64,000 nt of DNA, taken from Ectocarpus siliculosus (Eukaryota > Sar > Phaeophyceae > Ectocarpales > Ectocarpaceae). Positions 29,343 to 60,200 of this stretch are shown one piece after another. The translations under genes and the position numbers were made by a program. Position 1 is the stretch's first letter. Each line of letters starts with the position of its first letter. A model generated the notes under the pieces. That model was not told where the DNA came from. It did no database searches and worked only from the letters and a program-made list of their open reading frames with translations. The stretch spans positions 3,278,381 to 3,342,380 of the forward strand of contig FN649748.1 in the NCBI GenBank assembly GCA_000310025.1, in the 5' to 3' direction.

Positions 29343-30314
29343 GTGAGAAGTACTGTAATAGTCGGGGAGTTGGCACCGGGTGCGATCGTTTTTTTAAATG
29401 CTTTTTCCTCGGGTTTTTCATCGTACCCCGGTGCCATCTCTCCAACCGGTGCCATCTCTCCGACGCCGGTGCGGAAATAAATGCATTCATATCATTTCGT
29501 TTACAATTTTCAAGGCACCCCGGTGCGATCTCTCCGACCGGTGACATACCAATAAAATACACCTAGACAGACAGGTGTTGTATGCACGCACCCCGGTACC
29601 ATCTCCCCGACCGATACGATAGTATTGATACCAGTGTGGGCAACCCGCACACACGGTCTTCTTCACACGCTAGTTGACGTGCGTGTAGGTACCGTTGTTG
29701 CTGGTTGGAAGCACACCGGTAACGGCAACGCAGGCTGGTACGTTGCAGCTTTCTTCTATGCAGTGAGTGGTCTTGTGTTTGATGCGAGTTTGGCTATGGC
29801 GTGATAACAACAAACTGTGTCGTTTCCATCTGAGGTGGTACCAGTACACACGGTATCAATTGTTTGCTTCCGGCTTTCGTTTCGGTCTTCTTCTGCGGAT
29901 ACCAGTACGTACGCAGCAGTACGAACAGTTTCGGGTTGTGTAACGTGGGGTAGGGTGCGGCTTGTGTGTTGCGTGTTTGGTTGAGTGTACGGTTGGCAAC
30001 CTCCATACCAATCAATAAAATTAATACAACGGGCATCCCGCGTGAACCGCGACCATCCAATCGTACGTAAAGGAGTGGCTCTCCGCTGACACCGTTCCCA
30101 CACGTAAAAGGTACACACATGTGTCTCATTCCGGCAGCTGAAAAGGAGCTCAATCTTGGATTTCGGGGTCGGAGAGATCGCACTCGGTGTGATCTCACCG
30201 ACCCCGGTGCGTAAATCGAATTAAACGTTCTCGGGTTTTTTATCGCACCCCGGTGCCATCTCTCCGACCGGTGCCATCTCTCCGGCCGGTGCCATCTCTC
30301 CGACTATTACGGTA
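29343..30314 (+). repeat. Dispersed repeat family 2, copy A (with nested left piece)
   Basis: The core copy is 29516-30314. It carries the motif CGGTGCCATCTCTCCGAC in tandem at its right end and related copies at its left, plus an inverted copy (GTCGGAGAGAT) near 30168. The stretch 29343-29475 resembles the right end of the same unit, so two copies may be nested. It matches 53516-54239 in the same orientation. It has no coding domain. Confidence 0.85.
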
Positions 30315-31119: not shown

Positions 31120-34100
31120 TTATGAGGCGGGTGCTCCTCCCCGATCTTCCGGGCGGGGACAGAACAGGGGCGTCCCCGCTATTCTTACGCGAATCGGTTC
31201 CTCCCCTGTGCTGTCCTGGCAAACCCCGAACCCGGGGTAGGATGGGTACACCGCGATAACCTTAACGCATGGTAGTTGACGAAAGGATAGGCCGCAGGAG
31301 GCAAGAGAGGTGCAGACGGCAAGGGTAACGCGCCGGAGGCAAAGGGCGGTCGGTCAGGGAACAGGAGATTGGTTGACAAGAAGATAGGCAGCACTTTTCT
31401 ATCATATGGCGGAGTTAATGCTTCCTAGACTGCCGTGAGGGTGTGGCCGGTCGTAGAAACAAAGCCGGCCTGCGCAGTAGTGAATCCCTGTAAGCGGTGC
31501 CGAGACCAAATCCCTCGACACTTACCGGAAAACCGACGGGAGAGGAAGAATAAAGCTACACGTACACAAGCAGCCCTTCGGACTGGTGTCGATTTCGCAC
31601 CGCACGGCGTCGTACAACACACGCACGCATCCACCAAAGGGTACCACTATTTACGACACTTGCCATCAACAACAAAAAATGTTGACGAACCTCTTCTCCT
31701 TACCGCGTCGTGGTGGTCGCAGATTAAGGCCACTTCGTCCCTGCGGTGTAACGGCACCCCTTGCCCGCGAAGGAAATCCTTGAGCTTCGCGGGCCTATCG
31801 CGCCATGCTGGCCGAAAGCGATCTCCATCCTTTTTTCGCCTTCGAAAGGGCAAGATTATTGCAAATGGGGTGTCGCCATGGGCAAAGGGAGAGGCGTATG
31901 TACGGAGAGGAGGTCGCGAGAGACGGCAACACCAAGTCTTGCTGCTGCGTTTCGTCATGCCGGGACGGTGAAAAAATGTGCCAACACGAAAACCAAACGA
32001 AACATTAAATCACCGAACGGACACAACGGTCCGGTGCGAACAGTGAAAGTTCTCTACATGTCGCCAAGAGACAAGAGACATGAAGGACTCCGCCCAAGAA
32101 AAGGTGGTGCGCCATGTCGAAAGTGCTGAAGGATGAACGATGAAAACGCTCTGACGAAAGAAAGCAACGAACACACATAAGTTTTCCATTCTTCTTTCTG
32201 CCCACACTTTGGTGTGAAGATAAACAATCTACACCAACCTTATACACGGCCTGAGCTTGGTTCTCTCTCTCGCACCTCAACACACGCCCAGAACACCTCC
32301 ACGCTCACAAAACCGCCGCTCGCTCACCTGACGTGCAGCCGCGCCCCCGCAGCCACGTTGAAGAGCACCATCCCCGCTTCAGTCGCCCTTCCCTCCCCAT
32401 GGCCACTATCACCCTCTTCACCCAACCCAACGCTACCTCCCTCCCCCCAAGGGCTGACCACCATCTCCCACGGTGTGATGGCTGCATCCGTGGAGTGTCG
32501 CACTATGCCTTGCTCCGAGACTGTCCTGCCTTCGAGGCCCGATACCATGATTCCGCCGTCCGCAGGGCTCTGCTCTATGCGGAGCAAGTCGCCTGCGTGT
32601 TCGGGGAACGTTGCCCGAGCGCACGACACATAGATAGTGGGGGGGCCTCAGTATTGCCGGTTGAATATTGCCGGTGCCCGCTATAGTGCCGATGAAATTT
32701 CTCTACACAGACAGAACCCGCGGCAGTGCCGGTACCGGCACTACTCTGTGAGACGCCGTCAATAGTGCCGGTTTAGCCCCACTGAAAATTGAAAACCTCA
32801 ACACAGTGCCGCTTCGGCAGTTTTCACACCACACACACACACATCCGTAGCGAGAGAGGCACAAAAGTGTACCGTTGGAGCCCTATAGCTTCCGACGCAG
32901 AGGCACAAGATGCCGTGTGCTGCGGGTGATGAACTGTAACTGTCTCTTGTGCTTGTTTGTTGGTGTCTATTTACCCTACCCTCTGCCCGCGTGCTTGATT
33001 GTAGATCGAAGATGTTATAAATAGTACATTTTTATTGTTCAGGTCAAGAGGTGCTCCTTTACTTTGTGTGGGAACAAACTGCATGTGCTCCAGGTCAGCC
33101 AACTTTGTGCCTTCAGGAGGGCTTGTCAATTAGCTTGGTAGTGGGGGAAAGGTAGAGCGATACTTGTACATATCGCACCGTGCCACAACGTGCCACAACT
33201 TTGGAGTTCCAAGTCGTTGATTGCAGCAGAAATGGCAACCCGCAACGAAATACGTGCGTGCCGCGAAACATTTTTCTTCTGAGGCCCCTCGGTTTACTTC
33301 ACCAGCTCTCTAAGTGCCGGTTATAGTGCAGGTCCCTCTGAATAGTGCCGGTGTGCTGGTCTGGTCCATACCGGCACTACTGAGGGCCCCCCACCGTTGT
33401 ATGTAATGCGACGTGGGGGGTAGTAGGTCGGGTACCAGACAGGGCAATAACATGCAGTCGTCATGATCTACGACGCTCAGCTCTGTCGTTGTGGCAGAGC
33501 CCGCCCGTGGTCGAAATATGAAGACGTGTTTTGACACTATATTGTACCAAGAGGGGGAAGAACGGGGATGCGAATGATGGATGGGTCGACAGAAAATAAG
33601 ACAAACCTGTGCAATTGTTGTGACTGAGAGGTGAGCACGGCGGGGCGATGGGACGAGAAGCAAACTCTGAATAATATCTTGGGTTAGTGACCACGGGACG
33701 GCATGCTCAAATTGGGGCAAACACAGCGGTATAGGAGCAACACTTGATTTAGAAAGAAACGCAGGCAACGACGATGACCCCGATGTACGACATCAACATC
33801 ATTGTCAAGAAGAACAACAATGACGACCACGACGACGGCGACGATAACAATAGCAATAACCGACAGTGATTCCACACACAACTACACTTTCCCAGTAAGA
33901 ACAGCTACGAGAGATGTGCAACCTGCTACAACATGGGGGCGGCATGGGGCCAGTCCTAGCCAGCAGCCGCGAACGTTTCATCGCCCAGCGAAAAAAAAGA
34001 GACGCGGCAGAATTCCGCCTCGTCCTTCTGGAAAACCGCATGCAGGCCTTCACGCAGCCTCACCTACTCGACGCAAGTAGTAGCCACCTCCTAGTGAAAT

Positions 34101-37100
34101 CGACCACTTCCTGTCGCCCCCATCCACTTGCCGCATCAGGAGCCGCAGGTTTGCATAGGACAACGGCGAGTTGCCGGTATTTGCTGCGATACCATGTCCG
34201 AGACGGTGTCGCAGGAGCAGCAGTGGGACCACGAGCGAGGGGCGGTGGGGGGGGGCTTGAGTGCCGCGTTTGGTAGACGTAAAACGCGCCAAGAAGGATG
34301 AAAAGATTGTCGACGTGCTTTATACGCACGTTCTCAAGCAACCCATATTCTCAAGAAAGCTTTTCGGGTGGGTGTCTAGGATCGATCAAACAGTAGAGGT
34401 GCCACCAACCCTTGCGGGAAAACGCTCGGGAGACAACTTGGACGTTTCCGTTCGAAGGCAAAGACAGGCGCATGTCGCGCACCCTGGATACCGGTTGCTC
34501 GCGGGGGCACGCAACACCACGCACTACGTTTCACGTGCTGGGCATCATCTTGGCTTCCGGCCATCGAAGAGCTACGACACTGCCAAAGCCCGGGCCTTCG
34601 AAACTTGAAAACCAAACCACCGGCAATGGGCTATTGCGAGGCAACCGCAAATCAGGCGCGTACGTTCCGCGTTTGACCTGGATTTGCGTCGCCATCAACA
34701 CTTACTCGAGCTTTGACTAACCTCCTACCAAAGCTGAGATTTACTCGCGGAGCACATAGCGTGATCAAAGTCGGTGCTGCCGTGACTCGTTAGCTCACCC
34801 ACGATGAACCGATGCAGCAGCTCCTCTCTGACCAGCTCGGGCAAGTCAGACCCTGCCCACCCTTGCTCACTACCATCTCCTCCCGGCCCCTTCCTCAAGA
34901 ACGCCTGCAGCGGGAACTCCTCTCGCCTTATCCCCGACGGCGCCACGTCCCCGACCCCTCCGGATCGATCAACCGTTCCCCTGGTACCTGCTGATTGGTC
35001 AGCCCCTCCGACCTGGTCAGTCTCATCCCTACAACCCCCCGCTTCGTCGTCGAAACGGCACCCTGACAAGTGCGCCCTTTCCCAGCGCAACGCCTCCCGC
35101 TCTACCATCTGCCTAGCAAAGTGGCTTTGGCGGGAGAGCTCCTCGACGCGGGTGTCGAGGGCCTTGGTCCCGCCCGCGAGCTCCCGCAGGAGAGGGATCA
35201 ACTGGAGCCTGCAACGGGACGGCCGGGAACAGATAGCGCCCGCGCTCAAAAACCTCTATTATGGTGTTGACTGAGGCTGGGGTTCGTAGTTCCTCGTTTG
35301 GGCCATAAATGGTCGCTACAGCAGTGGCGGCTACGGTTTAAGAGAGGGTCGCGACAAGCCAGTATTTCTCTCTTAAAAAATCCGTTCTTGTCTCTTAAAA
35401 ACCGTACTGTGAAATGTACGTATTTCTCATGGTCGTGACAAGCCAGTTTGACTCTCTTAAATCCGTGATTTCTCTTAATAGTCTCTCTAAAAACCGTAGC
35501 CGCCACTGCACATAGGTTTTGGTGATGGGGTTCTTCACCGGGCTCATAAACGGTGCTCACGTTCCTATGTGCGGTATAATGTTGAGCATAAAGTTCTTGG
35601 GTGTCACGTTCTCAACCAAGTACGGGCGCTACATATCTGTAACGGGATTGCACGCAAAATAGCTTTGCGAGAAACGCGGGGGGTACGAGCGTAGGGTCGT
35701 CATGTCATACGGTTCTCCGCTAAAGAAAAGGGACAAGCCGTGGCGTGTGAAAAGCGCAGGAAGCGGTGAGCAAGCACAAGGATTGGTGGGGCAGACGGGG
35801 TGGAACGTACGGGAATACAAGTGAAGAGCAGTTCGGAGCGTGAGAAAAGCTTGGCGGGGATGGCGGGGGGGGGCGGGGGGGAGAATTTGCTTTCCGAAGG
35901 AGAAAGCTTCTGTCACAAGACAGACAGAGAGGAGAGTGAGAAACGCGCTGTCGAAAGAGCTGCGCGCGCTACGGAGAACAAGGGCGGTGATGGCACACTG
36001 GGGACGGGCGCAAAGATACTTGTGCGACGTTCTATTCACTACAAACGAACGAAGACCTCGTTGAAGTCTGCGGACGCAATAGCGACGCTGCCACACGTGC
36101 CACAGGAAAACGAGAAAGTTGGGTGCAGACAAGGGGGTCGGTCCTGCAACAGGACAGCTGGCCGAAGTCAGCACGACAAGCGAAGCAACGCCGAGCAAAA
36201 GACGCAAGAAACACGCAACCTTGGCCTACTCAATGACAACGACGACAACATCAACATGGGCGGAAAAAACGAGCCAACAGCATCAGAGACGCACGCACAG
36301 CAACACGATGTATACACAATAGAGGCAACAGCAGTGTCTACCCGCTGTCGGATCAACAGGTGTCTGCCTTCTCACCGAACGCGATTCCTGGCGTACTTCG
36401 CCACCTGGTTGCTCCCGTCTTCTCTCCAGGCATGCCTCCCCCGGACCAAAAAGTCCAAGAGTTCCGTTTTGTGGGCCCCCAGCAACGGCCGCACAAAAGG
36501 ATCCGAGTGCCACGCCATGCCCTACGCAGTCGCAAGTCGTACATATCGAAGTCAAGTGTCAGATATTGAACACGTGTAGTATTTGGTCGGGGGATTCGGT
36601 GGACGCCCAGGCCGACAGAAAGAGGAAGAACCCGCCGCGCTACGGATGTTGCCTGTGCGCAAAAGCATAGGCACAGCCTCCCGAGACAATCTGCCCTAGG
36701 CGACGAGACGATTCCGGTCTACCGCTGTACAGTCAGGGAGTACCTGTAGGAGACAGATGGAAGAAAATTCGCTTGCTATGGTGAACTACTCCCAAAGACG
36801 CGTTTTCGTACCGTGCCGAACAACATTCTTGCGCAGGAATTCACGAAAAAAATTGGAATTTCCGCCCCCGAGACCCAATAGTAGGTCCAGTTGTGATGGT
36901 TTGATCAGAACAATTTTTCCGCCATCTTCCCCTCCGAACACGCTACGTGCCCTGCACCAACGCGGAGTCAATACTCTGGGAGAAACAATTGTTCTTCCCC
37001 CGCTGCAGACGGACGCAAACATCACTAAGTCCTAGCCGCGGCCAGCCGGAAGATGAAAGGCGAAAGCGGACCGCGATTGAGGCGTGCGAAATACCCGCGG

Positions 37101-40100
37101 GGGAGAGATCCAATGGGCAATGGGTTAACCCTTTTGAGTCTTCAGGCGTTCTCACTGATCATTGATTGATCATTTGCAAATGCCGGTGTAGTGGCAAGTC
37201 GTGGAGTTGCCGCCCTGCAGCCCTTCGCGCCGTGTATTGGCAAGTCCATAGGTAGGTGTGTCTAGATTATTAGCACCCGCGCTAACCGGCTGACCAATGA
37301 AGAGACGTCAGTGACAGCGGGTAATATCAAGGTCTCGGGAATGGGAATGGGGCCAATCAATGCCAAATCATGAATCTCTCAATGTATGCACATGTCAATG
37401 AACGCGTGTGTGCATACAGTACATACATACATACATATGTGTTCTTTCGCAGCACCACACATACACTCGCCCGAACGTAGGAAGCCACTGCTGCAAAGAG
37501 CAGAGGACAGCCAAAGGGAGGGGTATTGCAGTCCCTGCCGAAGCCCAGATATCGAGGATATCGTGGTTCCCAACAATTTGAAAATCGTTCCCAAGATCCA
37601 GCAGTCATTGTGTCAACAGCTACAACGAACGCTACAACAACACTATTACTACTGCTGTAGACGAGTAAAACATATCAGCAACACATCCACACTCGTAGCG
37701 CCACACATACCACCCTCGCCCGAACCTAGGAAACCACGAGGTACAGGTGTGTGCTGGTGGATGTGCTTGTTGTTTGAAAAACACAGGAGCTCTAGAGAGT
37801 TGGCAGGGCACATTTCGGGGGGGGACAGAGAACAGAGAAGTACAGAAGTACAAATACCAGCTATGGGTCTTCACTGATCATTTTGCCCTCTCTGGACTGA
37901 TCATTTACAATATACCGAAAATAGACTAGTTGAGGCAGCTAGACGACTGATCATTTCAAAGGCTACACAGCTAACCTGCCCTACTGACCGCAGCGCGACC
38001 ACCCACCAACCCTTCTACGACCCTGTCTGTGGCCACCACCCTGTCGCCGGCTTCTCTCATGGCCTACAGGTGGAGATAGCTGTTGCGTGTGCAGAAGTAC
38101 ACTGGTGTCTTTCTCTGCACTTCTCTCTCTCCCGCTCGCTCTCGCTCTCATTTTTTTTTTTGGCGCAAAAAAAAAAATCTGACAGTCCAGCCTAGACCCA
38201 AAGGGGTTAAGCGCTGGGCGTTGATGTGCCGGCAAAAATGTAGGGGTTTCGAGCATTCTGTTTGGTATTGGATTGGATTTTGTTTGGTTCTGGTTTTAGG
38301 GTCAGCGAACGTTGTGTTGGTGCTGGATTTTGGTTTGGTTTTGGGGTCGGCTTTGGGGATTTGCAGGACGAGGACTGTTTTTCTTGAGGGTTCGACCGAA
38401 TGAGCTTTGTTCGTTGGTTCCATGGTTCTGACCCCAAAACTTTCTAAAAGCAGGGGGGTGGATCTCCCGAAGAAGGCGGGTTGTTGTTCTTCAGAAGGAA
38501 TTGTTTCTCTAACCGAACGATTAGTTGTTACGTAGAGTGAAGAAAAAATCAAGCATTCGCGGATAACCTGCGGAAATGATCTTGACAATGAACGAATATT
38601 TGGCATGATATTGCTTGATCAGAAATGTGAGGGTAGCATTCATGCCTAGGAGCGTTTTACCTGCGTACACTGGGCATTTTTGTAGTCCTGTTTTTGGGGG
38701 GCGGTTTGGGAGAATGTTTTCGACTGGATTGCTGGAACACGCCATGTGGTGATGCGGTTTGGCATCCATGTAGAGAGAGTTTGTCGGCACTACCGCACGG
38801 GGTATCGCCGCGACTAGAGGTAGTGGTAGAGGTTGTCGGCAATACCGCACGGCGTATCGCCGCGATTGAATAGATTTTGACGGCGCGATTAGTACCGCAT
38901 CACCGCATGGTGTGTTCCAACAGTCCAAACAAAAACAAAAAACGGATCATCACGCGCCTGAACGGGCCTACGACCCCAGTAAGCGGCGGCGTGCAGCTGA
39001 TGATGGCGCTGCTTCAGGGCTTGGATCGTGCAGGACGGAGGCCCTCGCCATGGGTAGCCTCTTCCTCTGGTTGGGGGTTGTCAGCCGTGCGGGCCGCTGC
39101 TGATCTGTGGTAATAATCTCTGGCTGACAATATTCCTAGTCGTCCTCCACAAAGTCGTTGAACGCTAGCGTGTTAGGCAAACCATGGAGGCCAAATCTTA
39201 AGCCTGTGTGTGTGTGTAGGGAGGCATCCCGGCCAGTTAGGGCCGAGATGGGAATGTCTTGTACTAGAGGGTAGTGAAGACCGAGGAGTCCCGCCACGAG
39301 AGTGAGTGCATCGCCACATCCATGTGTTACGCAATTCAGCTCACTAATCGAATCTCCGAGAAGTCGAAGTAGAATATCCCTGTTCTCTCAACTACATTCT
39401 CCGTAGGTCAATGCCCCATATTCAACCATCATACAGTATGAGTATGTCGAACAGCAAGCACTCAACTTCCAAACCATCACTGATGCCATGTTTGCGAACA
39501 TCCCGAAACTTTATGGTTTGGGGAACAGGCGCGTTGAAGAGATTGCAGCCCCTCGCCGGTCTCTGAAGCATCGGCGCACCTGAATGTTGGTGATATGCGC
39601 CCCCCGGAGGGCCTTGAGCAAGACCGTCTCGGTCTGATCATCCTTGTGGTGGGCCGTCGCGATCACCCCCCTCCCACCTCGCCCTGCCCCCGCCTCGGTC
39701 ATGCTCTTGGCGAGGATGTCTTTGGCTTCGGCACGCCTCCATCGCCTCGCCCTCTCCTGCATACCCGACCCTGGTCCGCCCGTGCCCCCCTCTTCCGGTC
39801 CTGCAGATTCAACGAAAAACATATATCCGTACGAGAAAGAACGTTCGGCAAAAAAAAATAACGTTAGGTACGAAAATAGAACAAGCGACCTCTAGTCAGA
39901 AGCACCTTTGCCCCCCTCTTCCGATCCTGCAGGTTAAAATAAAACCAAGCATCGGCATATGTGAAATAACAAGCGACCTTGAGTCAATACTTTTCTGAAA
40001 CTTTCGTTCCCGTTGGCCTCAGAAAATTTAAGGTGGGACGAAGATGCGGGTCCATTACCCGACCCCCATTGTTCGGTGTGCCAAGAACTTACACTACAGA

Positions 40101-41602
40101 TAACACCAGCGACCACCCGGCCTTTGATGGGCCCGTGGCAGATTTCCCCCCTGTCACATCCCGCCCATTTCTTTCGAGAAACCCACCACACCGCGAAACT
40201 CGTGCTTGCCCTCTTGCCGTGCGACTATCCGCCCGCGTGTCTAGAACAAGGAAGAGAAGAGGGGTATGCACAATGTGCTCCTTCAGTATCCTGGGTGACA
40301 CAAGAAGTCGCACCCCCTTGACCGATCTTCAAGGGTCGACTGCTCCACAGCAGAACGAGCGGCGGTGCCGAAACGGCGGCGTTGGCACCGTCTCGTCGAG
40401 AACAGTTAAAAAAACGTATCGTTTGATGAGAAAAATTCCCTCTTCGTTGTGGAGTAGTCGAGTTGTGAAAATCGGTCCGGGAGGTGTGATGTCTCCTGTC
40501 ACGTACGGTACTCGTACCTTTCCAGCGCCTAACGTGCAAGGGCACCCGGAGGCTGTCTGCCATTTTCACCACCAAGTCTTGGTCGGCGTCTGAGTCTTTT
40601 CCCCGAAGACCGTGGTTGAAATGCGCCGCTTCTACCCGGAGGGGCGGCTGGAAGGTCTTCGCGGCTCGTTCAAGGGCGAGGAGGAGAGCAACGGAGTCGC
40701 TTCCGCCGCTGACAAGCACAAGAACCTGAGGTCATCGTCGCCCCGAGGCGTGTCGAGCAACGGGAGCCGGGGGGAAAGGTGCAGGCACTGTCGTACCTTT
40801 GTCGTGCCCTACATGCAGGAACGCCGTATTTTAAAGTCCGAAGTGTGACCGCGGGACTGCTAGCTATGTAGCGAGGATGGCTACCTGAAAGAAGCAAACC
40901 GGAGCTTGGAGCTGGTTTGGTTCGCGATCTGGGCACTTGTCCATCACAGGATGGATTCAACGCTACTATGTCCCCGATAAAACCCAATACTGAAACACGA
41001 GCAATGACAAGGATCCCCACGCCGTTTCGTCCAATCACACACACGGAACGAAAAACACGCACCAAATCGCCACCGCACACGGTGCAGCGCTGTTCCAGAG
41101 CCGAAGCTACTCGCTCCACCAACGGCTCTATCTCCAAACCGACGGCCATCGAAGTACTGAGGTCTTCTCCATCGTCTTCTTTGCCGACAAACTTTCCTTC
41201 CGCTCGTGCCTTGTCTCTGGTCGTAACAGTAGCGCCGGCAGTGCTAGTTTCCCTCGCTTCTTCTTGTGCCTCGCAGCCGCTGGTGTTGCTGCTCCTGCTG
41301 CTGCTTCTGCGGCTGCTTGAGCAGCGCATGCCGTCGCTAAAGCATCCACCGCTGTAGCGGACAGCGGCGGTTGTCGCCGATTGCACGTGTCGATACCAGG
41401 GAGACTCTGTTGCGCACAGCCCGCCACTCGATGATCGCCAAGCGGTTGTAGCAACTGATGCGGGGGGTTCTAGCGCGGGTGGGCAGAAAGATGATAAGCC
41501 TAGGGCGATGGTACTGGAGCTCCGGCGTGGTGCTTGACGTGGCCGCTGCCGGCCACCCCAAAACGCCGGTGACGATAGGGGTTGCTGCAGGGTGTTGACC
41601 AT
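31120..41602 (-). CDS. tilS: tRNA(Ile)-lysidine synthase, nuclear-encoded (9 exons, 707 aa)
   Basis: TilS uses ATP and lysine to convert C34 of the CAU-anticodon tRNA-Ile to lysidine, so that it reads AUA. Exons: 41602-41081, 40725-40518, 39800-39580, 36521-36376, 35208-34799, 34183-34064, 32592-32328, 31794-31704, 31260-31120. All phases agree (708 codons with TAA). The PP-loop is LVSGGSDSVALL. Next come FNHGLRG and ATAHHKDDQTETVLLKALRG, GMAW..FVRPLL, WREDGSNQ..YARNRVR, LQLIPLLREL, then C-terminal-domain signatures LKDFLRGQGVPLHRRDEVAL and VIAVYP. About 170 Ser/Arg/Pro-rich residues precede the PP-loop, as in an organelle-targeting leader. The protein is longer than bacterial TilS (430-480 aa) because of this leader and of low-complexity inserts in exons 5 and 7. 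Many algal plastid genomes carry their own tilS, so mitochondria are the likelier site (inference). The start is the first in-frame ATG. Confidence 0.93.
32637..33394. mobile_element. 758-bp terminal-inverted-repeat element in tilS intron 6
   Basis: The left end, GTGGGGGGGCCTCAGTATTG, and the right end, read inverted, GTGGGGGGCCCTCAGTAGTG, both continue into CCGG. AGTGCCGG recurs near both ends. There is no transposase frame. Its left end is only 44 bp from the 3' splice site of tilS exon 7 (edge 32592). No clear target-site duplication is visible. Confidence 0.75.
35322..35508. mobile_element. CAGTGGCGG MITE, copy 1, in tilS intron 4
   Basis: Starts CAGTGGCGGCTACGGTTTAA and ends with the inverted form CCGTAGCCGCCACTG. 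It contains repeated CGACAAGCCAGT and TCTCTTAA blocks. A second copy is at 42925-43103 in the opposite orientation. 187 bp, non-coding. Confidence 0.85.
37267..37308 (+). repeat. Short dispersed repeat shared with 58520-58565
   Basis: ATTATTAGCA followed by CGCGCTAACCGGCTGACCAA and AGACGT is found here in tilS intron 3 and again in NOL6 intron 2. About 42 bp are nearly identical. It is probably a fragment of an interspersed element. Confidence 0.65.
38781..38880. repeat. Two-copy tandem repeat of 52 bp in tilS intron 3
   Basis: TTGTCGGCACTACCGCACGG at 38781 and TTGTCGGCAATACCGCACGG at 38833, each followed by GTATCGCCGCGA. A weaker third piece follows near 38878. Confidence 0.8.
39783..39987. 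repeat. Tandem duplication spanning the tilS exon 3 acceptor, with a decoy acceptor
   Basis: CCCCCCTCTTCC(G)TCCTGCAG occurs at about 39785-39806 (the true acceptor, CTGCAG|GACCGG on the minus strand) and again at 39911-39932 (CTGCAG|GATCGG). Both copies end in an ACAAGCGACC(T) block. Splicing to the upstream copy would read into an in-frame stop after about a dozen codons, so it is a decoy. Confidence 0.75.
40287..40509. mobile_element. Palindromic MITE-like element, copy 2, in tilS intron 2
   Basis: Arms related to those at 19824-20042: GTGACACAAGAAGTCGCACC on the left and an imperfect reverse complement ending GTCACGTACGGT on the right. The arms are more diverged than in copy 1. Its right end lies 9 nt inside the intron from the 5' splice site of tilS exon 2 (edge 40518). 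Confidence 0.7.
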
Positions 41603-42924
41603 GAAGCACGGCCGGTGGTGGATGCAGCGCCCGGCGAGGGCGACCGGGTAGGCCTTCCGTTGCGATAAGAAGGAGAAGTTGATACACAACAAGGCGACCG
41701 AGGTATAAGGGTGAGCGATGTCGCCTGCCGTCCGCGAGCTACTGTTAGGCAACGGTTGATGCAACTTGCCATACAATACACTCCTGTTGTTGGGCAGCTG
41801 TAGCTGCTGGTACGGCTGGTGGAGAGGAAGAGAGATTCCAACAAGCCAAGAGATATCTGGGTACACAACAGTAAGAGTCGAGTCCAGTATCCAGCATAGT
41901 TTCCCTCAATCTTCACAGTATATGTATGCTTCAACACACCCCCTTGAGAATTTGGCAGTCCTCTCGTGGAGGCTGTACAGTCTACTGCTTGCACCAGGCG
42001 TTTTTGGGCACCAACAACCTAGTTTTGATAGCTGGCGAGTCGGCCTACTTACAGTGGAAAGGTCAGTGCACAAGCAAGTCAGGTTTCCCCCGCGAGACAA
42101 ACGATGAGAGGCTCCGAAAACGCTCCAGCACTTTGACACGCCTGGTGTTCACAAGTTACTTCCCGACTAACAACTCAAGAAGACACCACCACCAATTCCG
42201 CCGCATTTTGTTTGTTTGGTGCTTGGTGTTTTGACCGCGTTATTTGTGCTCAGGAACTTGTCAGCAATATCACGCACACAACCCACAGAGAGTATAGGCA
42301 ATGATACATGCCGAACTGCAACAATCAATTGCCAGAAATCGGCGCGTTTTGCGGACGAACCAAGCCAAGCGATAAATTCATTAAATTCAAAGTTCAAAGC
42401 TGTCCAACAGGCCAACAGGAGACAGCAGTCTGTACGTCTGTCCTGCTGTAGCCTCGATGGACTACAGCAGTACCCGCGATCTACATGTCTCACCTCTTTT
42501 CCTGCGACCGCCACAACCCATGCCATCAACACCAACACTTGCACGTACGTGTACAGGACCGCACTTGTCGATGGAGTGGTTGGCGCTGCTTCCATACCGG
42601 AGCAAAGGTCGTGCGTTTGTTGTGTGTGCACGATCCACGACCCGTGTGTCTGTCGCTTGGTGAAGCTAGCGGGGGTGCTTTCAACAGTCCCGCGTTGGTC
42701 CCGCCGCATATGTAACGAACCAGCTGGTCAAACACATCGCTCGACCGCCCTTGACCTGCAAGCCTGCGAGTTTGGCAGTCTTTCTGTGTGTGTATTTATT
42801 TTTCCTTAATGGTATTCTAATGAGGGGGAAATCCAGAGGGGATGGAAACGGGTGCCTGATACTTTACCTCGCATCTGCGGTTGTTACAATTTTTTCCACC
42901 TCGAGCTCCAAATAGTGTTGTGTA

Positions 42925-43103
42925 CAGTAGTGGCGGCTACGAGACTTTTAAAGAGAAAAAGTACCGATTTAAGAGAGAGTCAAACTGGCTTGTCACGACC
43001 ATGAGAAATAAACACATTTCACAATACGGTTAAGGGAGAAAACCAGATTTAAGAGAGAAATACTGGCTTGTCACGACCCTCTCTTAAACCGTAGCCGCCA
43101 TTG
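42925..43103. mobile_element. CAGTGGCGG MITE, copy 2, with TA target duplication
   Basis: Starts CAGTAGTGGCGGCTACG, ends CCGTAGCCGCCATTG, and is flanked by TA on both sides (42923-42924 and 43104-43105). Its interior matches 35322-35508 in inverted orientation, including CTGGCTTGTCACGACC twice. Confidence 0.85.
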
Positions 43104-47939: not shown

Positions 47940-50900
47940 CTACACGAACCCGGCCTGACCTGCTCGTTCATCCTTGCTCCCAGTCCTTCCCGACTCTCCA
48001 TTACCCACGCCGCTCCTCGACTTGCTACGCGACCGCAGCGCGCCCATCACCCCCCCCGAGCCACCCCCCGGTCCTCCTCTATCGCGCCGCTCTCGATGAT
48101 TTCGGCCGCCAGAAGACGACTTCCTCGCCCCTTCCCCGCTCCCGCGCCCCATGCCCTCGTCGGCCATCGGCACCGTTATGCTCATCGGCTCGGCACGCAA
48201 GGGCGCGTGTTCAACCGGCCGCAGCGCGGTCTGCTGCAGTCCGGGCATGGACGACGACGACGACGAAAGGCCCTTAACGCTGTCGGAGGCGGGGCTGTTC
48301 ATCGCCAGGGTCCCGTCATTGCCCCCCCCCCCTCGGTGCTGCGCGTGTACGCCGTCTCCCGAGGCAGAGCGGGGGAGGTTGGTGCCCACGTTGTTGGCGG
48401 AGCTCGCGCTGCCAGAGGCTGCGATGCTCCGTGCGCCGCTGCCGCCGCTACCGCCTGCAGCGGCAACGCTGCCACCGCGAGATTCATAGGCCTTCATTCC
48501 GGCAGCACCGGTCCCTGCTGTTGCTGCTGCTTCTGCTGCTGCTGCTGTCTCAGAGCCCGAGGACTCTGCGCTGCGTGCCGTCGCTTCCGGCGTGGCTGTC
48601 CCGCTTGCCCTGCTGCGGAATTTCAAACAGAGAGCATACGGCGTAGCGGTCTGCTTGATGCAATATACTACGGTACGCGTGGACTAGGCGTAGCATACTT
48701 CTCGCTTTAGCAACCCTTGGTTTGCTGATGGATGAGACCGCCGCGTGCGATGGGTATTTGATCGGGTCCTAAACATATAGCGCGTGCGACTGGCGCTGTT
48801 GTGCAGTGCTAAGCAGCTCACAATGAACACTCGAGTACTGTACCGCGCGGCACCGGGTAGCACCCCGAAGACCGGGTACAGTATCTCCCTCGTAAACCGA
48901 AGCAAGACAGCAAACCAAAGGGCCTGTGCTATAAAGCGGGCACGCAATCGTCATGTTCCATGCTAGATTACCAAACAAGACGCACTTTGCAAAACGTGGC
49001 GAACAAAACAACCGAACACCTTGGAACACCAGGCGACAAACAAAAAAACAAGCCGCCTTCCAATGCACAGCAGAGGGCATACTATGAAAACTCTCACCCA
49101 TGCCGCGCTCTGCCACACTTCATGAAACGGCTCACTCGCCGAAACCACCCGCCGCCGCCGCCGCCGCCGCCGCCTCCACCACCGCCATCGGCCGCCTTGC
49201 CGCTGCCGACCTCGTTCGACACCGGAGTAGCAACAACACGGTCGTCGCCTGATTGGCGACTGTGTCCGGGCGCCATGGTAGGCTCTTCTGCTGTCGGTGG
49301 CACCGCTACCGCCGAGAGTTGCTGCTTCGCGGCACCACCGCCGCAACACCAGGCCGAGGGCTGTTTCGGGATGTAGCTCTTGAGCAATTTTTGCATCGGG
49401 ACATCACCCTGAGAACAAACGCGCAGCAGGGAGGGTGACGACGAGAGGGCTAATGAGCGGTGGCGGGGGAGGTGGCCGTGAATTGCACGCGACGACCAGA
49501 CACGAGCAGCAGCAGTATCTGCACAGAGCAGCTGACACCCATGTTGAGGGAGAAAAATCACAGCCAAGGGAACCAACTGCTACTGCTCTTGAACAAGAGC
49601 AGAAAACACGCCGTTACCGTTCTCCCAGCTGGCGATCGTGTACATATGGAAGGCACCCTGCTTTAGGCAGGTACACCCCTGTCCTATCCTCCTTTCCTGA
49701 GACGGGTGTGTTACGGGAAACGCAAACATCAACGACTAAAGCGGCCTGAACGTTACAGCTCTTGTCTGATCTAGCACAACCCTGGATCTCAGAAAAACAC
49801 ACAGAAGTGACACATACGGACGGTGCAGCGGTAGCCGCAGTCTTACAAGTTCTTTCGCGAACACCACCGCCGTCTTCCCCTCAGCATCCGTGGCCGAGCA
49901 CAACTCAGCGGGGGAAGGGACCGGCCCGTCCACTCCCTCCTCATCCTCAGTGCAGCCTTCCGACCACTCCAGGATTGCTTCCGCCACCTGCAGTGAAACG
50001 TCACGATAACCATTGAAAATACCCGCGGCAAGAAGGCGGGCGCGGAATCAAAAATAAGCACGCCTTGATGACAGGTAGGCCAGAGGACAAGCGTATTACT
50101 GTGTTCCTGCACTGCACAACAAAATTAACTAGCAAAACGTATCAGCCACAGGTCGCTGGGCATTTCTCGGTGATCATCTCATGGCGTGAAATACTGTTCT
50201 GACAGTCAGCCCAACGCTCACAATTTAGCAAAATACAAAATGCCATCCCACCAAATGCCCTGCGTACCACGGACCATGCTCTTCGCTGATTTGTGTACCA
50301 CTGTGTATACGTGTAAGGGTTGGTTGCCCACGACATCTGCGGGTTCCGCATGCTTCACCGCTGCCGCCAACAAAAGCTCACCGAATGCCATCGTTGCTGC
50401 ACAGCGCACATGAGAGGATTCATGCCGCTCACGGTCTTGCTTCGTAGATCGCCCCCCCTTTCCAAAAGCAGCTAAGAACAAAGGGCAATCGCACCGGACA
50501 TGAGCGAGACAAAGTTGCATGACGGGGAGGGGGACAAGCGGTAGGCTGTTGGAAGTTGTCTCTGTGACGGACCCTTGCGCATACAAACAACACTCACCCT
50601 CGCCTTGCACGACCTTTCCGTCAGGGTTGTGCAAAAAGCCCATCCATCTATTTTTTATAAGCCCAAACAGCCTCAAGCACGTATGTGCGCGGCAAACGAC
50701 GCCCCCCGCACCGATTTGACCGGACACAAAACACCAGAGCCCTACCTATCCCTGCCACTACGTCCCAAGCTTCGAGCAGAGTGTGTGTCCATCTTGGAGG
50801 GGTATGGGGGGACTCATGAAAACGCATGCCGTAGTCGTTGGACCATTGACCTCGCATCCCCACAATGCCGGGACGGAGCGATACGCCGGGTTTTCGCCGG

Positions 50901-51738
50901 CCCACGCGACGCTTAACAAAGATGAGCCAGGAAAGCTGGTCATCAATCATCCTTGCGTTTTCTTTGGGGGAGTTATTCTCGCGGCGTTTGCCCGGCCATG
51001 GTGAACACAGCATCACCCGCACCTGAGTAGCGTCAAGGTGACCGCTGATGGCCGCCCAGTGCAATGGCGTTCGAAGGCATCTGTCCGCGGTGTTTACGGG
51101 AGCTCCTGCTTGTAGGAGGTAAATGATGATACCCACATGATTCGCGCCGGCGGCCCTGCGCATGAAAACCGCAGAAGCATCGGCATGCCAACAGAAATTG
51201 CCAGGGGTGGGCGAGAGAGATTCGCAAAAGTGAGGTCAACTACTTCGAAGTATTAGCTAACATCCACCAACATGGGCCAAGTCGTCGAGGGAGTGGAGGT
51301 GACCTGAAGGTACCAGAGTAAGGAGCCAGAGAGAGACACACGTGATACGTTTCATGTTTTTGAGAAAATATGCACACCATCACAGAAAGACTACCCGCTC
51401 GAGATAACACCACAGCAGTCGGAGGATATGTGTTACAGTCGACAGCTGTGAGAGTGTGAGAAAAACCGGTTGACTTGTGCCACGACGACAACGACAAGAG
51501 TGTCGTTTACTTTCCCGGCAAACATGAGGGGGGTACAGTAGCATGTTATATTCGGCACCACTCCGCGCTTCATTCATGAATCGATGGACCATGAACTACC
51601 ACAAACAATGCCAATAGATGGTCTCCACACGGTCGAAAGCTCTCAAATACCTGTGTAGGGCAGTTCGGTCCTGCGCGCCTTTCTGGTTGACGTTGACCTC
51701 TCCGGTTTCCACAAGTTGCCGTACGCTCTGGATATCCC
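47940..51738 (-). CDS. Ankyrin-repeat protein with Gly/Ser-rich tail (5 exons seen, about 448 aa, 5' end missing)
   Basis: Exons on the minus strand: 51738-51651, 51155-51023, 49987-49847, 49408-49098, 48612-47940 (TAG). Phases 2, 0, 0 and 2 join exactly. The first about 130 residues are ankyrin repeats: DIQSVRQLVETG, then RTALHRAAGANHVG with a YLLQAGAPVN turn, RTPLHWAAISGHLD, and a degenerate ATDAEGKTAVVFAKELGD. Ankyrin repeats bind other proteins; the partner is unknown. Exon 4 carries a long acidic insert inside a repeat (EWSEGCTEDEEGVDG). Exon 5 has 13 Gly in a row, then WFRRVSRFMK. The last exon is Ala/Gly/Ser-rich and ends basic. Exon 2 enters in phase 1, so at least one more exon lies upstream. 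An ATG at 52865 (MELVRRGLKKANIFAI) looks plausible, but its donor phase does not fit. The region between is damaged by an assembly fault (51858-52620). Confidence 0.8.
49147..49192 (-). repeat. GGC repeat coding poly-Gly
   Basis: A GGC/GGT/GGA run on the minus strand in exon 5 of the ankyrin gene, coding 13 Gly. Confidence 0.9.
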
Positions 51739-51857: not shown

Positions 51858-52620
51858 ACCAGGGGGGGGGGGGGGGGGGGGGGGGGGGGGAAGCCGGCCC
51901 CAAAAAAAAATTGCTTCCGGGCCCCAGGGGGGGGGCAGGGGGTTTAACCCCCAAAAAAGCGGGGGAAAAAACCCAGGGAAAAAAAATTTTTTTTTCAAAA
52001 AACCGATGGCCTACCCCTTTCCCTTTAATGAACTTTGACTTGTATTTGGGAGGGGGAATTGAGGAAACCCCCCCAAGGGGAAAAAAATTTCCCTTTTTCC
52101 TTCCCCTTTCTAAAACCCCCTTTGGGGGCTACAAAAAAACCAAATTTGTCCCAGGGCCCCTAAAAAAGTTTAAATGTCTATTNNNNNNNNNNNNNNNNNN
52201 NNNNNNNNNNNNNNNNNNNNNNNNNNNNNNNNNNNNNNNNNNNNNNNNNNNNNNNNNNNNNNNNNNNNNNNNNNNNNNNNNNGATTTTTTTATTTGGGCA
52301 CCCCCCCGCGTTTTTTTTTGAAAGGGGGGGCCCGAGAATCCCCCCAAAAACGGCCAAAGGGTGGTCCCCCCCGGGGGAAAAGTTTCCAAAACCCGGGGGG
52401 GGGGGGGTTGGGCCGGGGCCCCTTTTGGGGGGGGGGGGCCCCCCCCGGTTTCCCAAAGTTCCCGTCCCCCTGGGATTTCCCCCTTGAAAAAAACCGTTTA
52501 CCCGCCGGGGCCAAAAACCGGGGGGGGGGGGGGAAAAACGGGGGGGGGGCCCCCCCTTGGGGCCGGGGGGGCGGGCCCCAAGTGGGGAGGGGGGGGCCCC
52601 CCCGGGGGGGGGGGGGGGGG
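51858..52620. other. Artefactual assembly segment (low-quality sequence around a gap)
   Basis: The stretch opens with a long G homopolymer and consists of smeared homopolymers on both sides of a 100-N gap. Left of the gap, 51908-52182 is a degraded copy of 52646-52930 (AATTGCTTCC then CAGGG and TACTTATACTTGTA-like phrases in the same order). Right of the gap, about 52350-52560 is a degraded copy of 51600-51780 (CCGGTTTCCCAAAGTTCCCG against CCGGTTTCCACAAGTTGCCG). Genes should not be called here. Confidence 0.9.
52183..52282. other. 100-N assembly gap
   Basis: Exactly 100 undetermined bases, the usual size for a gap of unknown length. Confidence 0.99.
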
Positions 52621-53515
52621 GGGGCGTGGGGTGATGCTGGCTCGATACGACAATTGCTTCCTGCGCCAGTGGGGGGGTCAGGAGCTGTAACGCCCAAACA
52701 AGCAGGGCAAAAATCCGAGGCAAATAAAATCTTTCTATCAATAGAGCGATGTCGTAACCCTTTGCCTTTGATGTACTTATACTTGTAGTTGCTAAGGCAA
52801 GCTGAGGAAACCACCACGATGGCAAAAATATTCGCCTTCTTCAGTCCCCTTCGTACAAGCTCCATTGGATGCTACGAAAGACGCAAATCTGTCGCAGGTC
52901 CCGTAAAAAAGTCGATATGTCGATCTCCACGAAACCTACACGGCCTCGCCATCCGTGGTTGTATTGGACCTGTACTCTGAAGTGCTACATTTACGTGAGT
53001 TTTGGATATATTGAGGTGCAAGGCAACAAATACACAACATCTTCCATGTCAAGGAAACCTCTGGCCGGTGTTCATCCCGTCAACTTGCAGCGCCCATCAC
53101 TTTACGAGCGGATGCCGGGCACACTTTCTTGCACTTCTGGCGGTGAGGGCCGTTCCTCTCAAATATTAGACGTCCGTCGACCCGTCGCTCTACCTACCAC
53201 GCCTCACCCCTCCGAGCTTGCGCGCTGTTTTCTGGTACGTCCTTGCGTTGAGCACGCAGCTTTCTCGAGTTATTTATAGCGCGTCCGCGGCAGTTATACA
53301 TATACTGAATCGAGAGAGTCTTTCTTCTCAGTCTCTTTCTCGCAGCACTAGGATATGATCCCCGCTCAATCAGTCTTAACCCCCTCTACTCTCTACACAA
53401 CACGTCTTGGAGGAAATCATCGGGCATTAATGTGAAGACAACAACAACAACAACAATGTGCGTGAGTATGTGCGTCAGCCTCGGGTCCGGTCATGTCATC
53501 GTCAAGAAGGTGTTG

Positions 53516-54239
53516 CACCCCGGTGTGATCTCTCCGACTGGTGCGATCCCCGATGAAATGCACACAGGTGTTGTATGCACGCACCCCGGTGCCATCTCCC
53601 CGACCGTTGCCACAGTATTGATTGGTACCAGTGCAGGTACCCACGCACGCACACAGTCTTCTGCACACACGCGCATGTATATGAGCCCGTAAAAAGGCGG
53701 CGAAATACACATACAAAATACAAAATACCCCGAGAAAAGCGGCGAAATAGCGCATCTGAGTTCGTACCAGTACACACGGTATCAATTCGTTCCCGCTTTC
53801 GATTCGGTCTTCTTCTACGGATACCAGTACGTACGCAGAAGTACAATAGCTTCGGGTTGTGTAAGGTGGGGTAGGGTGCGGCTTGTACGTTGTCTACTTG
53901 GTTGAGTGTACGGTTGGCAACTTCCATACCAAAAAAAAATGAAAACAACTGGCATCCCGCGTGAACCGCGACCATCCAATCGTACGTAAAGGAGTGGCGC
54001 TCCACTGACTCCGTCCCCACGTGAAAAAAGGTACGCACGAGTATCTAATTCCGGCAGCTGAAAAGGAGTTCAATCTTGGATTTGGGGGTCGGAGAGATCA
54101 CACCGGGTGCGATCTCACCGACCCCGGTGCGTGAATCGAATTAAATGTTTCTTCTCGGGGGGGGTTTCGCGCCCCGGTGCCGTCTCTCCGACCGGTGCCA
54201 TCTCTCCGGCCCGTGACAACTCTCCGACTCATACGGTAT
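53516..54239 (+). repeat. Dispersed repeat family 2, copy B
   Basis: Matches 29516-30314 along its length in the same orientation. Shared phrases include GCATCCCGCGTGAACCGCGA, TCCAATCGTACGTAAAGGAG and CCGGCAGCTGAAAAGGAG. It ends in the same tandem CCATCTCTCCG motifs. Part of the middle differs (a local insertion with GGCGAAATA repeats near 53700-53755). Confidence 0.88.
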
Positions 54240-57262: not shown

Positions 57263-60200
57263 ATGGATGCGGCTGCTATTGAACAGATGGGCAGCGGAAC
57301 GCAGAGCGATGACGATGACATGATGTCGTCGGGTGGTAGAGGGGTCGATGGCGACGACACCGCTTCCTGGGACGGAGGAGAAGGACGTGATTTCGGAGAC
57401 GAAGGTACCACAACAGCTCCACGCTAAGCTGTAAGCTACGAAATTGTTGTGGGTGGCGAGCAATGTCGTTGTGTGTTGTGGGCGGGACTCGCTGCGGTTG
57501 CTGCCTATTGTCGACACCGGCTCTTTTTTTCGCGGCCCAGAGCCGCCGTCTCCATCACCATCCTCATCGTTGGGGCGGAGGGAGAGAGGGAGAGCAGCAG
57601 TACAGCCAAACGTAGAGGCGCTGTGGTTTCGGATGTCGCCTAAGTTATGACGATGTGGGCATTAAACCGGCAATGGTGTAGCGTTTGTGTGTAGTGCAGC
57701 AGTTATGCGTGAGGGAAACACCAACATTTCACAGCCTCGCCGTGTCCGGGCGGACACAGCTTGAAATCCCGTGTATTGGCGCGGCGATCAAGCACACCGC
57801 CAGGTAGCGCCATCCTCGCTCTGGCATGCGGAGGACGAGCGCAACCTCTGCCCACCGGTGCACCTTCCTCAGAGCCTGGGCACTGATGCCACTGAATCGA
57901 CGTTTTGCTCTCCCGTCTACTATCATACGGACGTGGAAATGTAAATATTGTCGGTCCTCTGCTGCGAGAACAACCGCGATCGTCCCTGCGCCTTGTCACG
58001 GCGCTGCCATTCTGAACCAATCAATCATTTGCGTCCAACGTTGCCTTGTGGAACAGACGAGGAGCACGGCACCGCAGGCAACGGCAGACGTGGGGGCGAC
58101 GCTGACGGCGGCGAAGGCGATGGGGCACCCCCGCAGAAGAGGGCGCGGGACGCCAAGTACGCGATCCCCACCATGGAGGAGGCGTCCCTGTTGAGGGAGA
58201 CAGAGGGGAAGCTGTTCGAGGGCAACCTCTTGAGGCTGGAGGTGGAGGAGCTGCTGGGAGAGGTCAGGCTGGATCACGGCAAGAAGAGCGTCAAGGCGTT
58301 GGAGGTGAGGGAGGCGATTGGGTTGTAGTATGTCGCACAACAGAAGTGCTTGTTCGCCTTCCGTGCGGTCGTCGTCCAGAGGCTGTGGACTGAGTTGCTG
58401 ATGTCGGGACAAACATCCCCGCGTCGTGCTGCTTGTTTGCCCCAGCCCGTGTATGGGGTCTATTTGCCAAGCAGCGATTGCTATAGAAGAACGCGTACGG
58501 GTGCGTGTGTGTGTGTTTAATTATTAGCATCGAACGCGCTAACCGGCTGACCAATGAAAAGACGTGAGTCTCAGTGCGGGTGAAAACCAAGAACACTTCT
58601 AAATGCCATTAACTGGGACCCAGTGAGGGGGCGGCATGGAGACTAACCTATTCTCCGCATCATAGAAAGAAAGCGTGTGTGTGTGTTGTTTCTCCCGGCA
58701 TTGCGTACACCCAATTTTTGATCTATGCCTGCTCTTGCTTCGCGAAACGCCAGAAATGGCTCCACGTGCTGAAGGACACTCTGGAAGACCTACCACCTGC
58801 CACGGTGACGGAGGAATCGCTAAGGCTGGCGGGCATTCGGCTCGCCAACCACGTCCCTGGAAAGCCCGTATCGCTGGAATTCCAGCCCCCCGAGGTGATT
58901 CATGCCAACGTGTTGTTTATTTAGTAGGTTACATTTCTGTGCAACAGTTGGGTAGCAAATAAGGGTTAGGGTTTAGGATGCTACTCATACAGTTTCCAAG
59001 GTTGTATTTTCTCAATGTTTGCGGTCAAGACACGCAGATAGCTGTATCTCGTGATGGACACACTTGCCCGCAGCCCGTTTGCTTGTGTCGTTTCCTGACT
59101 CGGCAGACGCACAGTTTTCAGAACTACACAACCGATACCACCCCCCTTTTGCCGGTCGGTAATAACGTTGACATTGTACATTCCGCGACCACGACGACGA
59201 CTTGCCATGGCGTGGCGTGACATGGTACCTTGCAGGCGGATGGCTTCGACGTCGCCGGGAGTTTCTTGCTCCGTTCTCTGGCCAAGCCGAGCTTAAACGT
59301 CGACCTAGCTCTGCGCATGCCTTCGGAGTGCATCGTGTCGAGAGACTCGCTGAACCACCGGTACTTGGACAAGAGGGCTCTTTACGCAGGACACGTTGCG
59401 AAGACGGCGATGGACGCTGCGGGGTCGTTGGGCAAGCTAGTCGACAAAGTGGAGGTACAGCATGAGGACGTAGGCGAGGGCGAGAGGAATTTTACGAGCT
59501 GTTCTACGACGATGATACCACATTGTTTCTATTGGGATCGAGAGGAATGGGAATACCGACAGCTCTACTTAGCTTCGAGCTCTGCGCGCGGCCGTGACCG
59601 TGCGTTTTGTCTTGCTGCTTCGGGACACTTGCCGTCGGGCCTGGAGCTATCCTGGCCAGAGAGCACAGCCAGGCTTCGACCAATCAATTCATGCGGAACG
59701 CGCCCAAAGTGTTGTCGACTTTGCAGCTTTCGAATTCTTGATCTTTGCTCCCGTGCCTCCGCAAAACACGTCGTGGGCCGCCTAACTCTTAAGTTGTAAT
59801 GGCCACGACCCCCTGTCTCTCTCCTCTGAAGTCGACCACCCCCCCTTTGGTACTCTCGTGTTGCTGACTTGCGACGCAGCTGTCGTACTTGAAGGGAGAC
59901 CCTAGGAAGCCGGTTGTGCTGCTGTACCCTTCTCTGAGCGTGTCGAAGAAGGGCAGTAAGAGCAGGGTCAAGCTAAAGGTCAAGCCGGGCACGGGGTTTG
60001 TGGTCCGGCTGTTGCCGTGCTGCGCGCGGAACGCCATGGTGCCCGCTAGGCTTGCTCCCGGGAGGAACAACGTCAGGACCAGGTCAGATAATTTTGCTCT
60101 GCAGAAGCGTATGTGGGTGTCTTGCAGCACGTGTGTAGGGTGTTTTGTGTGTACGTTCACGCCCTCGAAAAAAAATTGGTTCTTGTGTGCTTCCTGACTC

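Follow-up and report, generated by a model that had tools for sequence, protein, structure and literature searches.

Structure of the TilS gene

The window, that is the whole stretch of 64,000 nucleotides of Ectocarpus siliculosus DNA that was analysed, carries a nuclear TilS gene on its minus strand, with nine exons that extend from 41602 to 31120 and join in phase into one open frame closed by a TAA stop (Table 1). All eight introns are of the GT-AG type and measure between 337 and 3058 nt. When the acceptor at 32592 is used for exon 7, the frame is kept over 2187 nt (728 codons plus the stop), with neither an internal stop nor a frameshift. The earlier note had proposed a complete nuclear gene of nine exons, and this proposal is confirmed by the GT-AG introns, the in-phase join and the presence of both TilS domains above their cut-offs; the six motif groups that it quoted were all found, on the minus strand and in separate small frames. 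The mean lengths are 243 nt for the exons and 1037 nt for the introns, in a window with a GC content of 0.531. In the genome comparison of PMC6507550, the column that we take as Ectocarpus gives a GC content of 53.6%, exons averaging 242 nt, introns averaging 704 nt and 6.98 introns per gene; for Saccharina japonica the GC content is 48.7%, with 4.63 introns per gene and a mean intron of 1203 nt. Searches with Rfam (at gathering thresholds) and ARAGORN found nothing within the window.

Table 1. Exons of the TilS gene and two of its introns, in window coordinates. E values are those of single pieces against the profile of bacterial TilS.
Feature	Position	Strand	Description
Exon 1	41063..41602	-	First in-frame ATG at 41602; leader of ~155 aa, then start of the TilS core (LVERVASALEQ)
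Exon 2	40518..40725	-	PP-loop SGGSDS, AAHFNHGLRG; top of 1973 six-frame pieces, E 4.2e-22
Exon 3	39580..39800	-	ATAHHKDDQTETVLLKALRG; E 1.2e-10
Exon 4	36376..36521	-	GMAW..FVRPLL, WREDGSNQ, RNRVR; E 5.3e-15
Exon 5	34799..35208	-	LQLIPLLREL helical linker, low-complexity insertion and LPELVREELLHRFI; E 0.37 alone; phase-compatible GT-AG ends
Exon 6	34064..34183	-	ANTGNSPLSYANLRLLMRQV..LGGGYYLRR; top of 172 local candidates; alternative longer acceptor 34255
Exon 7	32328..32592	-	Linker, followed by the first part of the C-terminal domain (GARLHVR); possible acceptors 32592, 32529 and 32520
Exon 8	31704..31839	-	TilS C-terminal domain KKDGDRFRP..GVPLHRRDEVALICD; E 7.3e-6 alone; TIGR02433, PF11734
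Exon 9	31120..31260	-	VIAVYP and C-terminal tail; TAA stop 31122-31120; in the joined protein, PF11734 is matched up to residue 701
Intron 3	36522..39579	-	3058 nt, longest
Intron 4	35209..36375	-	1167 nt; contains a dispersed repeat, inverted copy at 42974-43103

Support for the exons and choice of splice sites

A profile was built from 74 bacterial TilS (82 open reading frames extracted from 86 loci, minus those shorter than 390 aa and the duplicate L086) and used for an unguided search of the 1973 six-frame pieces of the window. The first five ranks were occupied by exons 2, 4, 3, 8 and 5 (E values of 4e-22, 5e-15, 1e-10, 7e-6 and 0.37, respectively), all lying on the minus strand in the order of the profile, and the best piece elsewhere in the window reached an E value of 0.65. 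Exons 2, 3, 4 and 8 are thus individually significant and exon 5 is not; exons 1, 6, 7 and 9 do not appear among the best 25 pieces. Since the five best of the 1973 pieces are colinear exons of the same strand, the exon set is not a product of chance.

Exons 6 and 7 were compared with alternative exons. The modelled exon 6 has the highest score among 172 local GT-AG, phase-compatible candidates, itself included, and its longer form gives a protein of 752 aa but scores 4.8 bits below the short one. The donor of exon 7 (32328) is clear, whereas its acceptor is ambiguous, the three possible sites lying within 0.6 bits of each other; 3 of 26 local candidates reach the score of the model, namely the model itself and two that share its donor but start from another acceptor. 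The length of 707 aa given in the earlier note corresponds to the acceptor at 32529, which shortens the exon by 63 nt, while the one at 32592 leads to 728 aa and that at 32520 to 704 aa. Decoys were also drawn from the whole minus strand, with stop-containing rows dropped (89 when both exons were replaced, 0 for exon 6 and 31 for exon 7), and the model score was reached by 9 of 911, 13 of 1000 and 18 of 969 of them, respectively. We think that these high-scoring decoys are probably explained by a pool including the other exons of the gene itself; the local candidates (172 and 26, model exons counted) are the cleaner test.

Family membership and conserved residues

The joined protein exceeds the curated cut-offs of the N-domain model of TilS (TIGR02432, 131.1 bits versus 93.6) and of the C-domain model (TIGR02433, 27.4 versus 20.2), as well as those of Pfam ATP_bind_3 (PF01171, 124.6 versus 27) and TilS_C (PF11734, 37.7 versus 22). 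The earlier note had named the lack of a C-terminal hit as grounds for giving up the assignment, and this domain was matched by both of its models. Because related PP-loop enzyme models score far below their own cut-offs (TtcA, 20.5 bits versus 272; TtuA, 12.7 versus 450), the protein is closer to TilS than to either of them. The full-length E. coli-type model PRK10660 (NF007942) gives 72.3 bits, under its cut-off of 606. By these scores the predicted protein is a TilS, but one placed outside the E. coli-type (PRK10660) subfamily. A search of the PDB returned only three matches at E <=0.01, labelled tRNA(Ile)-lysidine synthase (3a2k), mesJ (1ni5) and AQ_1887/tRNA(Ile)-lysidine synthase (1wy5), which we take to be the TilS of Geobacillus, E. 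coli and Aquifex.

With these bacterial enzymes the protein shares the PP-loop SGGSDS, the motifs HH.DDQ.ET, RPLL, D.SN and RN.VR and, according to the family models, the C-terminal domain; it differs from them by the eight introns of its gene, an N-terminal extension of ~155 residues and low-complexity insertions in the linker. A set of 38 columns shows at least 90% conservation across the 74 bacterial TilS, and the protein is identical at 32 of them, including the SGG.DS, HH.DD and ET residues; the catalytic motifs are intact. Each of the 74 sequences itself has 32-38 of these columns, which places the protein at the lower edge of the range. Six strongly conserved positions are changed, and two of them are glycines of the loop following ALRG, where RGAHITN stands in place of the glycine-rich RGtGlkG of the bacterial enzymes.

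N-terminal leader

The match to the TilS profile begins at residue 161 of the joined protein, and the leader that precedes it has no homology support in the comparison with bacterial TilS. It is rich in Ser, with Arg, and has no acidic residue within its first 44 positions. The bipartite targeting signal of complex plastids is expected to have a hydrophobic core, and no such core was seen: among 12-residue stretches beginning at one of the first 35 positions, the highest Kyte-Doolittle mean is 1.32. The GC content at the three codon positions is 0.555, 0.677 and 0.587 in the leader, compared with 0.679, 0.500 and 0.713 in the body of the gene. The case for the leader as an import signal, suggested in the earlier note, is weak: the Ser-rich composition and the absence of early acidic residues agree with it, but the hydrophobic core is missing and the codon-position GC differs from that of the rest of the gene. 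Other in-frame ATGs are present in exon 1 at 41329 and 41149; the true N-terminus is uncertain, and an upstream exon could contribute a signal peptide.

Proposed function in the organelles

With the gene structure, the family membership and the conserved catalytic motifs observed above, the sequence very probably encodes a functional nuclear TilS whose product would be imported into an organelle, where it would make lysidine for AUA decoding. The protein would be synthesised in the cytosol and, once imported, would activate C34 of tRNA-Ile(CAU) at the expense of ATP and couple lysine to it, the resulting lysidine-bearing tRNA reading AUA as isoleucine and not AUG as methionine; this reaction is predicted by analogy with the known family. 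The gene is real and, as an expected housekeeping gene, is no surprise.

Which organelle is served can be said with less certainty. In the accessible part of a survey of 72 red-lineage plastids, Ectocarpus and Saccharina among them, tilS (ycf62) is described as specific to Rhodophyta, and the paper on the plastid genomes of Ectocarpus and Fucus uses neither name in its main text. A plastid copy alongside the nuclear gene is accordingly unlikely, and the additional tilS in the plastid or ongoing gene transfer envisaged in the earlier note finds no support in that survey. No statement of a trnI(CAU) in a brown-algal plastid was found in the literature passages. For the mitochondria, the passages list three trnM(cau), one trnI(gau) and no trnI(uau) in Scytosiphon, and the annotation of one slot varies between species, some having it as trnM-2 and others as trnI. 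A mitochondrial trnI(uau) is named in one Sargassum paper, which speaks against lysidine being required in all brown-algal mitochondria. Because a plastid tilS is unlikely and some brown-algal mitochondria have extra CAU tRNAs, service to the plastid, the mitochondrion or both is the plain reading. The enzyme would serve the plastid, whose genome in brown algae appears to be without tilS, and probably the mitochondrion as well. As the plastid genomes of brown algae appear to be without the gene while CAU tRNAs remain in the organelles, a nuclear enzyme would have to supply lysidine, and the gene would fill a gap in the organelle translation of its brown-algal host.

The protein could also be confined to the mitochondrion, the plastid being served by another enzyme or by a second nuclear copy. 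This is possible, though we consider it unlikely: a Ser-rich leader with Arg, free of acidic residues before position 45 and of the hydrophobic core of a bipartite signal, argues for it together with the extra CAU tRNAs reported for some mitochondria, but the plastid genome is apparently devoid of tilS in the sources available, and an upstream exon could supply the signal peptide given the uncertain N-terminus. Returning to a TilS that serves the organelles at large, we advance only as a doubtful extension that a single nuclear enzyme, dual-targeted to plastid and mitochondrion, might be the only AUA-decoding enzyme of the brown alga, that it might have replaced a plastid tilS lost at the red-algal plastid takeover, and that the RGAHITN loop might be adapted to two tRNA-Ile(CAU) substrates. 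The gene offers a test case for the dual targeting of a tRNA-modifying enzyme; dual targeting of aminoacyl-tRNA synthetases is reported for diatoms and cryptophytes in the consulted part of PMC4494062.

Nuclear TilS has already been reported from plants, Chlamydomonas and apicomplexans in the excerpts consulted, and the remark of the earlier note that it is uncommon outside algae and plants needs the addition of the apicomplexans. No title on a brown-algal nuclear tilS stands among the open-access literature matches listed. The TilS of Plasmodium falciparum (PF3D7_0411200) resembles the protein described here in its nuclear gene, a comparably long N-terminal extension (180 aa) and its organelle use, but its import into the apicoplast was shown experimentally, according to PMC12069591, whereas an organelle location of the algal protein is a prediction. 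Arabidopsis RSY3, likewise nuclear and from a plant expected to use TilS in both mitochondria and plastids, and Chlamydomonas Cre13.g572800, nuclear with a predicted chloroplast location, are likened to it by their published descriptions. The plastid tilS (ycf62) of red and some green algae belongs, by name and as far as the sources describe it, to the same family, but the gene of the window is nuclear and spliced.

Integrity and origin of the gene

The tree comprised the protein and 55 of 128 fetched loci, with no cyanobacterial, plastid or known alphaproteobacterial TilS among its rows. The protein lies in no starred group and on a long branch (1.82 changes per column). This branch, the weakly conserved linker, the six changes at otherwise conserved positions and the unusual composition of the leader are what a decayed copy or an unspliced relic might display. 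Such a pseudogene is nevertheless very improbable in view of 728 codons free of stops and frameshifts, intact catalytic motifs, eight usable splice pairs and a third-position GC content of 0.713 in the body of the gene against 0.506-0.561 in the introns.

A recent bacterial gene transfer or a bacterial contamination of the assembly is hardly credible: TilS is a bacterial enzyme and the matches are bacterial or from viral contigs, only such collections having been searched, but the gene has eight introns, because of which contamination is rejected, its identity to any of the 55 tree rows is at most 32% over 298 columns, no starred group holds it, its best single segments, at 40% identity across the greater part of the N-domain and 43% in a short stretch, are ordinary for the domain, and a eukaryotic Nrap domain lies within the same window.

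An unstarred fork (SH-aLRT of 88) joins the protein to five rows, namely contigs of Gemmatimonadota, Bacillota and Verrucomicrobiota, a Nocardia plasmid record and the viral contig L127; the rows are mixed and the fork was not accepted as kinship. In the viral contigs, a 24-base piece of a dispersed repeat had no exact match and the protein used as sole query had none either. A small alignment used as query detected 12 TilS-like loci there, six of which were placed in the tree: besides L127, the five others group with a Vibrio plasmid sequence.

Family assignment and gene structure

When the nine exons are joined, both TilS domains match above the curated cut-offs of NCBIfam and Pfam, in support of a complete tRNA(Ile)-lysidine synthase that includes the C-terminal domain. 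Only three PDB matches were obtained at E ≤0.01, all of them TilS chains, among them 1ni5 (mesJ), which we take to be TilS. The E. coli-type full-length model PRK10660 gave 72 bits, below its cut-off of 606. In an unguided search, made without any exon choice, a profile of 74 bacterial TilS was compared with 1973 six-frame pieces of the window (20 aa or longer). The top five were, by rank, exons 2, 4, 3, 8 and 5; all lie on the same strand, and their order along it is that of the profile. The first four were each significant alone (E 4e-22 to 7e-6); exon 5 was not (E 0.37, the next-ranked piece, outside the gene, being at 0.65), and exons 1, 6, 7 and 9 were not among the best 25 pieces. With the same profile the full nine-exon join reached 253 bits.

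Coordinates of the tilS exons and of other features in the window
Feature	Strand	Positions	TilS profile positions
Exon 1	minus	41602-41063	
Exon 2	minus	40725-40518	23-98
Exon 3	minus	39800-39580	101-152
Exon 4	minus	36521-36376	154-202
Exon 5	minus	35208-34799	200-244
Exon 6	minus	34183-34064	
Exon 7	minus	32592-32328	
Exon 8	minus	31839-31704	383-426
Exon 9	minus	31260-31120	
Dispersed repeat (intron 4)		35322-35457	
Inverted copy, upstream of tilS		42974-43103	
Ankyrin-repeat frame	minus	50651-51235	
Nrap domain 1 frame	plus	59221-59796	
Gap and homopolymer-rich stretch		52183-52640	
CCGGTGCCATCTCTCCGA-like units		29408-30304; 54174-54228	

The TilS motifs named in the earlier note lie in separate minus-strand frames within 41602-31120. 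With exon ends set at canonical splice sites, the eight introns are all GT-AG and measure 337 to 3058 nt, the junction phases (0, 1, 0, 2, 1, 1, 2, 0) are consistent throughout, and the joined frame of 2187 nt encodes 728 residues with a sole, terminal stop. The agreement in phase claimed earlier stands. The claimed 707 aa matches an exon 7 acceptor at 32529, 63 nt from the one at 32592 that gives 728 aa; the profile scores (253.2 bits for 32592, 253.7 for 32529, 253.8 for 32520) do not separate them. The exon 6 model has the top score among 172 local candidates, itself counted, and for exon 7 three of 26, the model included, equal or exceed the model score, all sharing its donor. The window GC (0.531), the exon mean (243 nt) and the intron number are close to the values in the column of PMC6507550 taken as Ectocarpus (53.6%, 242 nt and 6.98 introns per gene); the intron mean of 1037 nt exceeds the 704 nt of that column and stays below the 1203 nt of Saccharina japonica. 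Together with the Nrap domain and ankyrin repeats elsewhere in the window, these values are compatible with a brown alga, though short of proof. The observation of a tilS gene is sound and the gene itself is ordinary; the core of the earlier interpretation holds, its extensions being graded unproven or unlikely.

Conserved residues and relationships

The protein retains 32 of 38 near-invariant positions, as few as any of the 74 bacterial TilS, which keep 32-38. Two of the six departures are glycines of the loop after ALRG, at least 96% conserved among these 74, the segment across exons 3 and 4 reading RGAHITNIQGM against RGtGlkGLaGM in the bacterial profile. In the known family, C2 of C34 is activated by ATP and then attacked by lysine (PMC12069591); by analogy, the protein would catalyze the same activation and lysine addition.

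In a tree of 56 rows, made of the protein and 55 bacterial or viral-contig loci, the protein lies on a long branch outside every starred group, with at most 32% identity to any row (over 298 columns), so that no bacterial relative can be named as closest. An unstarred fork (88) unites it with five mixed rows, one of them a viral contig. The gene joins the nuclear organelle TilS already reported in plants (PMC13308715), Chlamydomonas (as a prediction, PMC8877259) and apicomplexans (PMC12069591); pedinophytes had no nuclear candidate for mitochondria (PMC12574857).

Organellar context and leader

The plastid reports below apply to this gene provided that its host is a brown alga. PMC4810238, whose sample includes Ectocarpus and Saccharina, terms tilS (ycf62) specific to Rhodophyta plastids, which implies, without spelling it out, that ochrophyte plastids lack it; the main text of PMC2765969 names neither tilS nor ycf62, and PMC8763093, on secondary plastid endosymbiosis, counts 18 tilS losses over its phylogeny. 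No passage placing trnI(CAU) in a brown-algal plastid was found in the literature consulted; PMC11528492, on an ochrophyte, lists lysidinylated Ile-tRNA(cau) among the organellar tRNAs to distinguish during annotation. For the Scytosiphon mitochondrion, trnM(cau) is listed three times and trnI(gau) once (PMC7510613), and one conserved brown-algal mitochondrial slot is annotated as trnM-2 in some species and as trnI in others (PMC9202911, PMC11354929). The trnI(uau) implied for most Sargassum species studied (PMC11354929) argues against a universal need for mitochondrial lysidine.

The leader of about 155 residues (27 Ser, 18 Arg+Lys, 14 Asp+Glu) has no acidic residue before 45, no hydrophobic signal-peptide core and no homology support. 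Its codon-position GC is unlike that of the body, the second position being highest, which could reflect a Ser/Ala/Arg/Pro-rich transit peptide or untranslated sequence. Upstream of the first ATG, the frame is open over 41603-41902 (up to 41905), without ATG, and its codon-position GC (0.52, 0.44, 0.69 over 41902-41603) is body-like and coding-like, so an upstream exon may exist; shorter forms could start at the in-frame ATGs 41329 and 41149. Import into an organelle, suggested in the earlier note, is thus likely on biological grounds rather than from the leader sequence.

Other features of the window

The dispersed repeat and its inverted copy share two blocks 93-96% alike; a 24-base piece had no exact match in viral contigs. 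An exon-like frame matches domain 1 of Nrap, a eukaryotic nucleolar protein (E 1.5e-9), and another frame carries ankyrin repeats (E 3.3e-8). A gap of 100 bases and the roughly 350 homopolymer-rich bases after it are likely poor-quality assembly, making frames within this stretch unreliable. Units resembling CCGGTGCCATCTCTCCGA have copies in at least two places and may belong to a mobile or low-complexity element.
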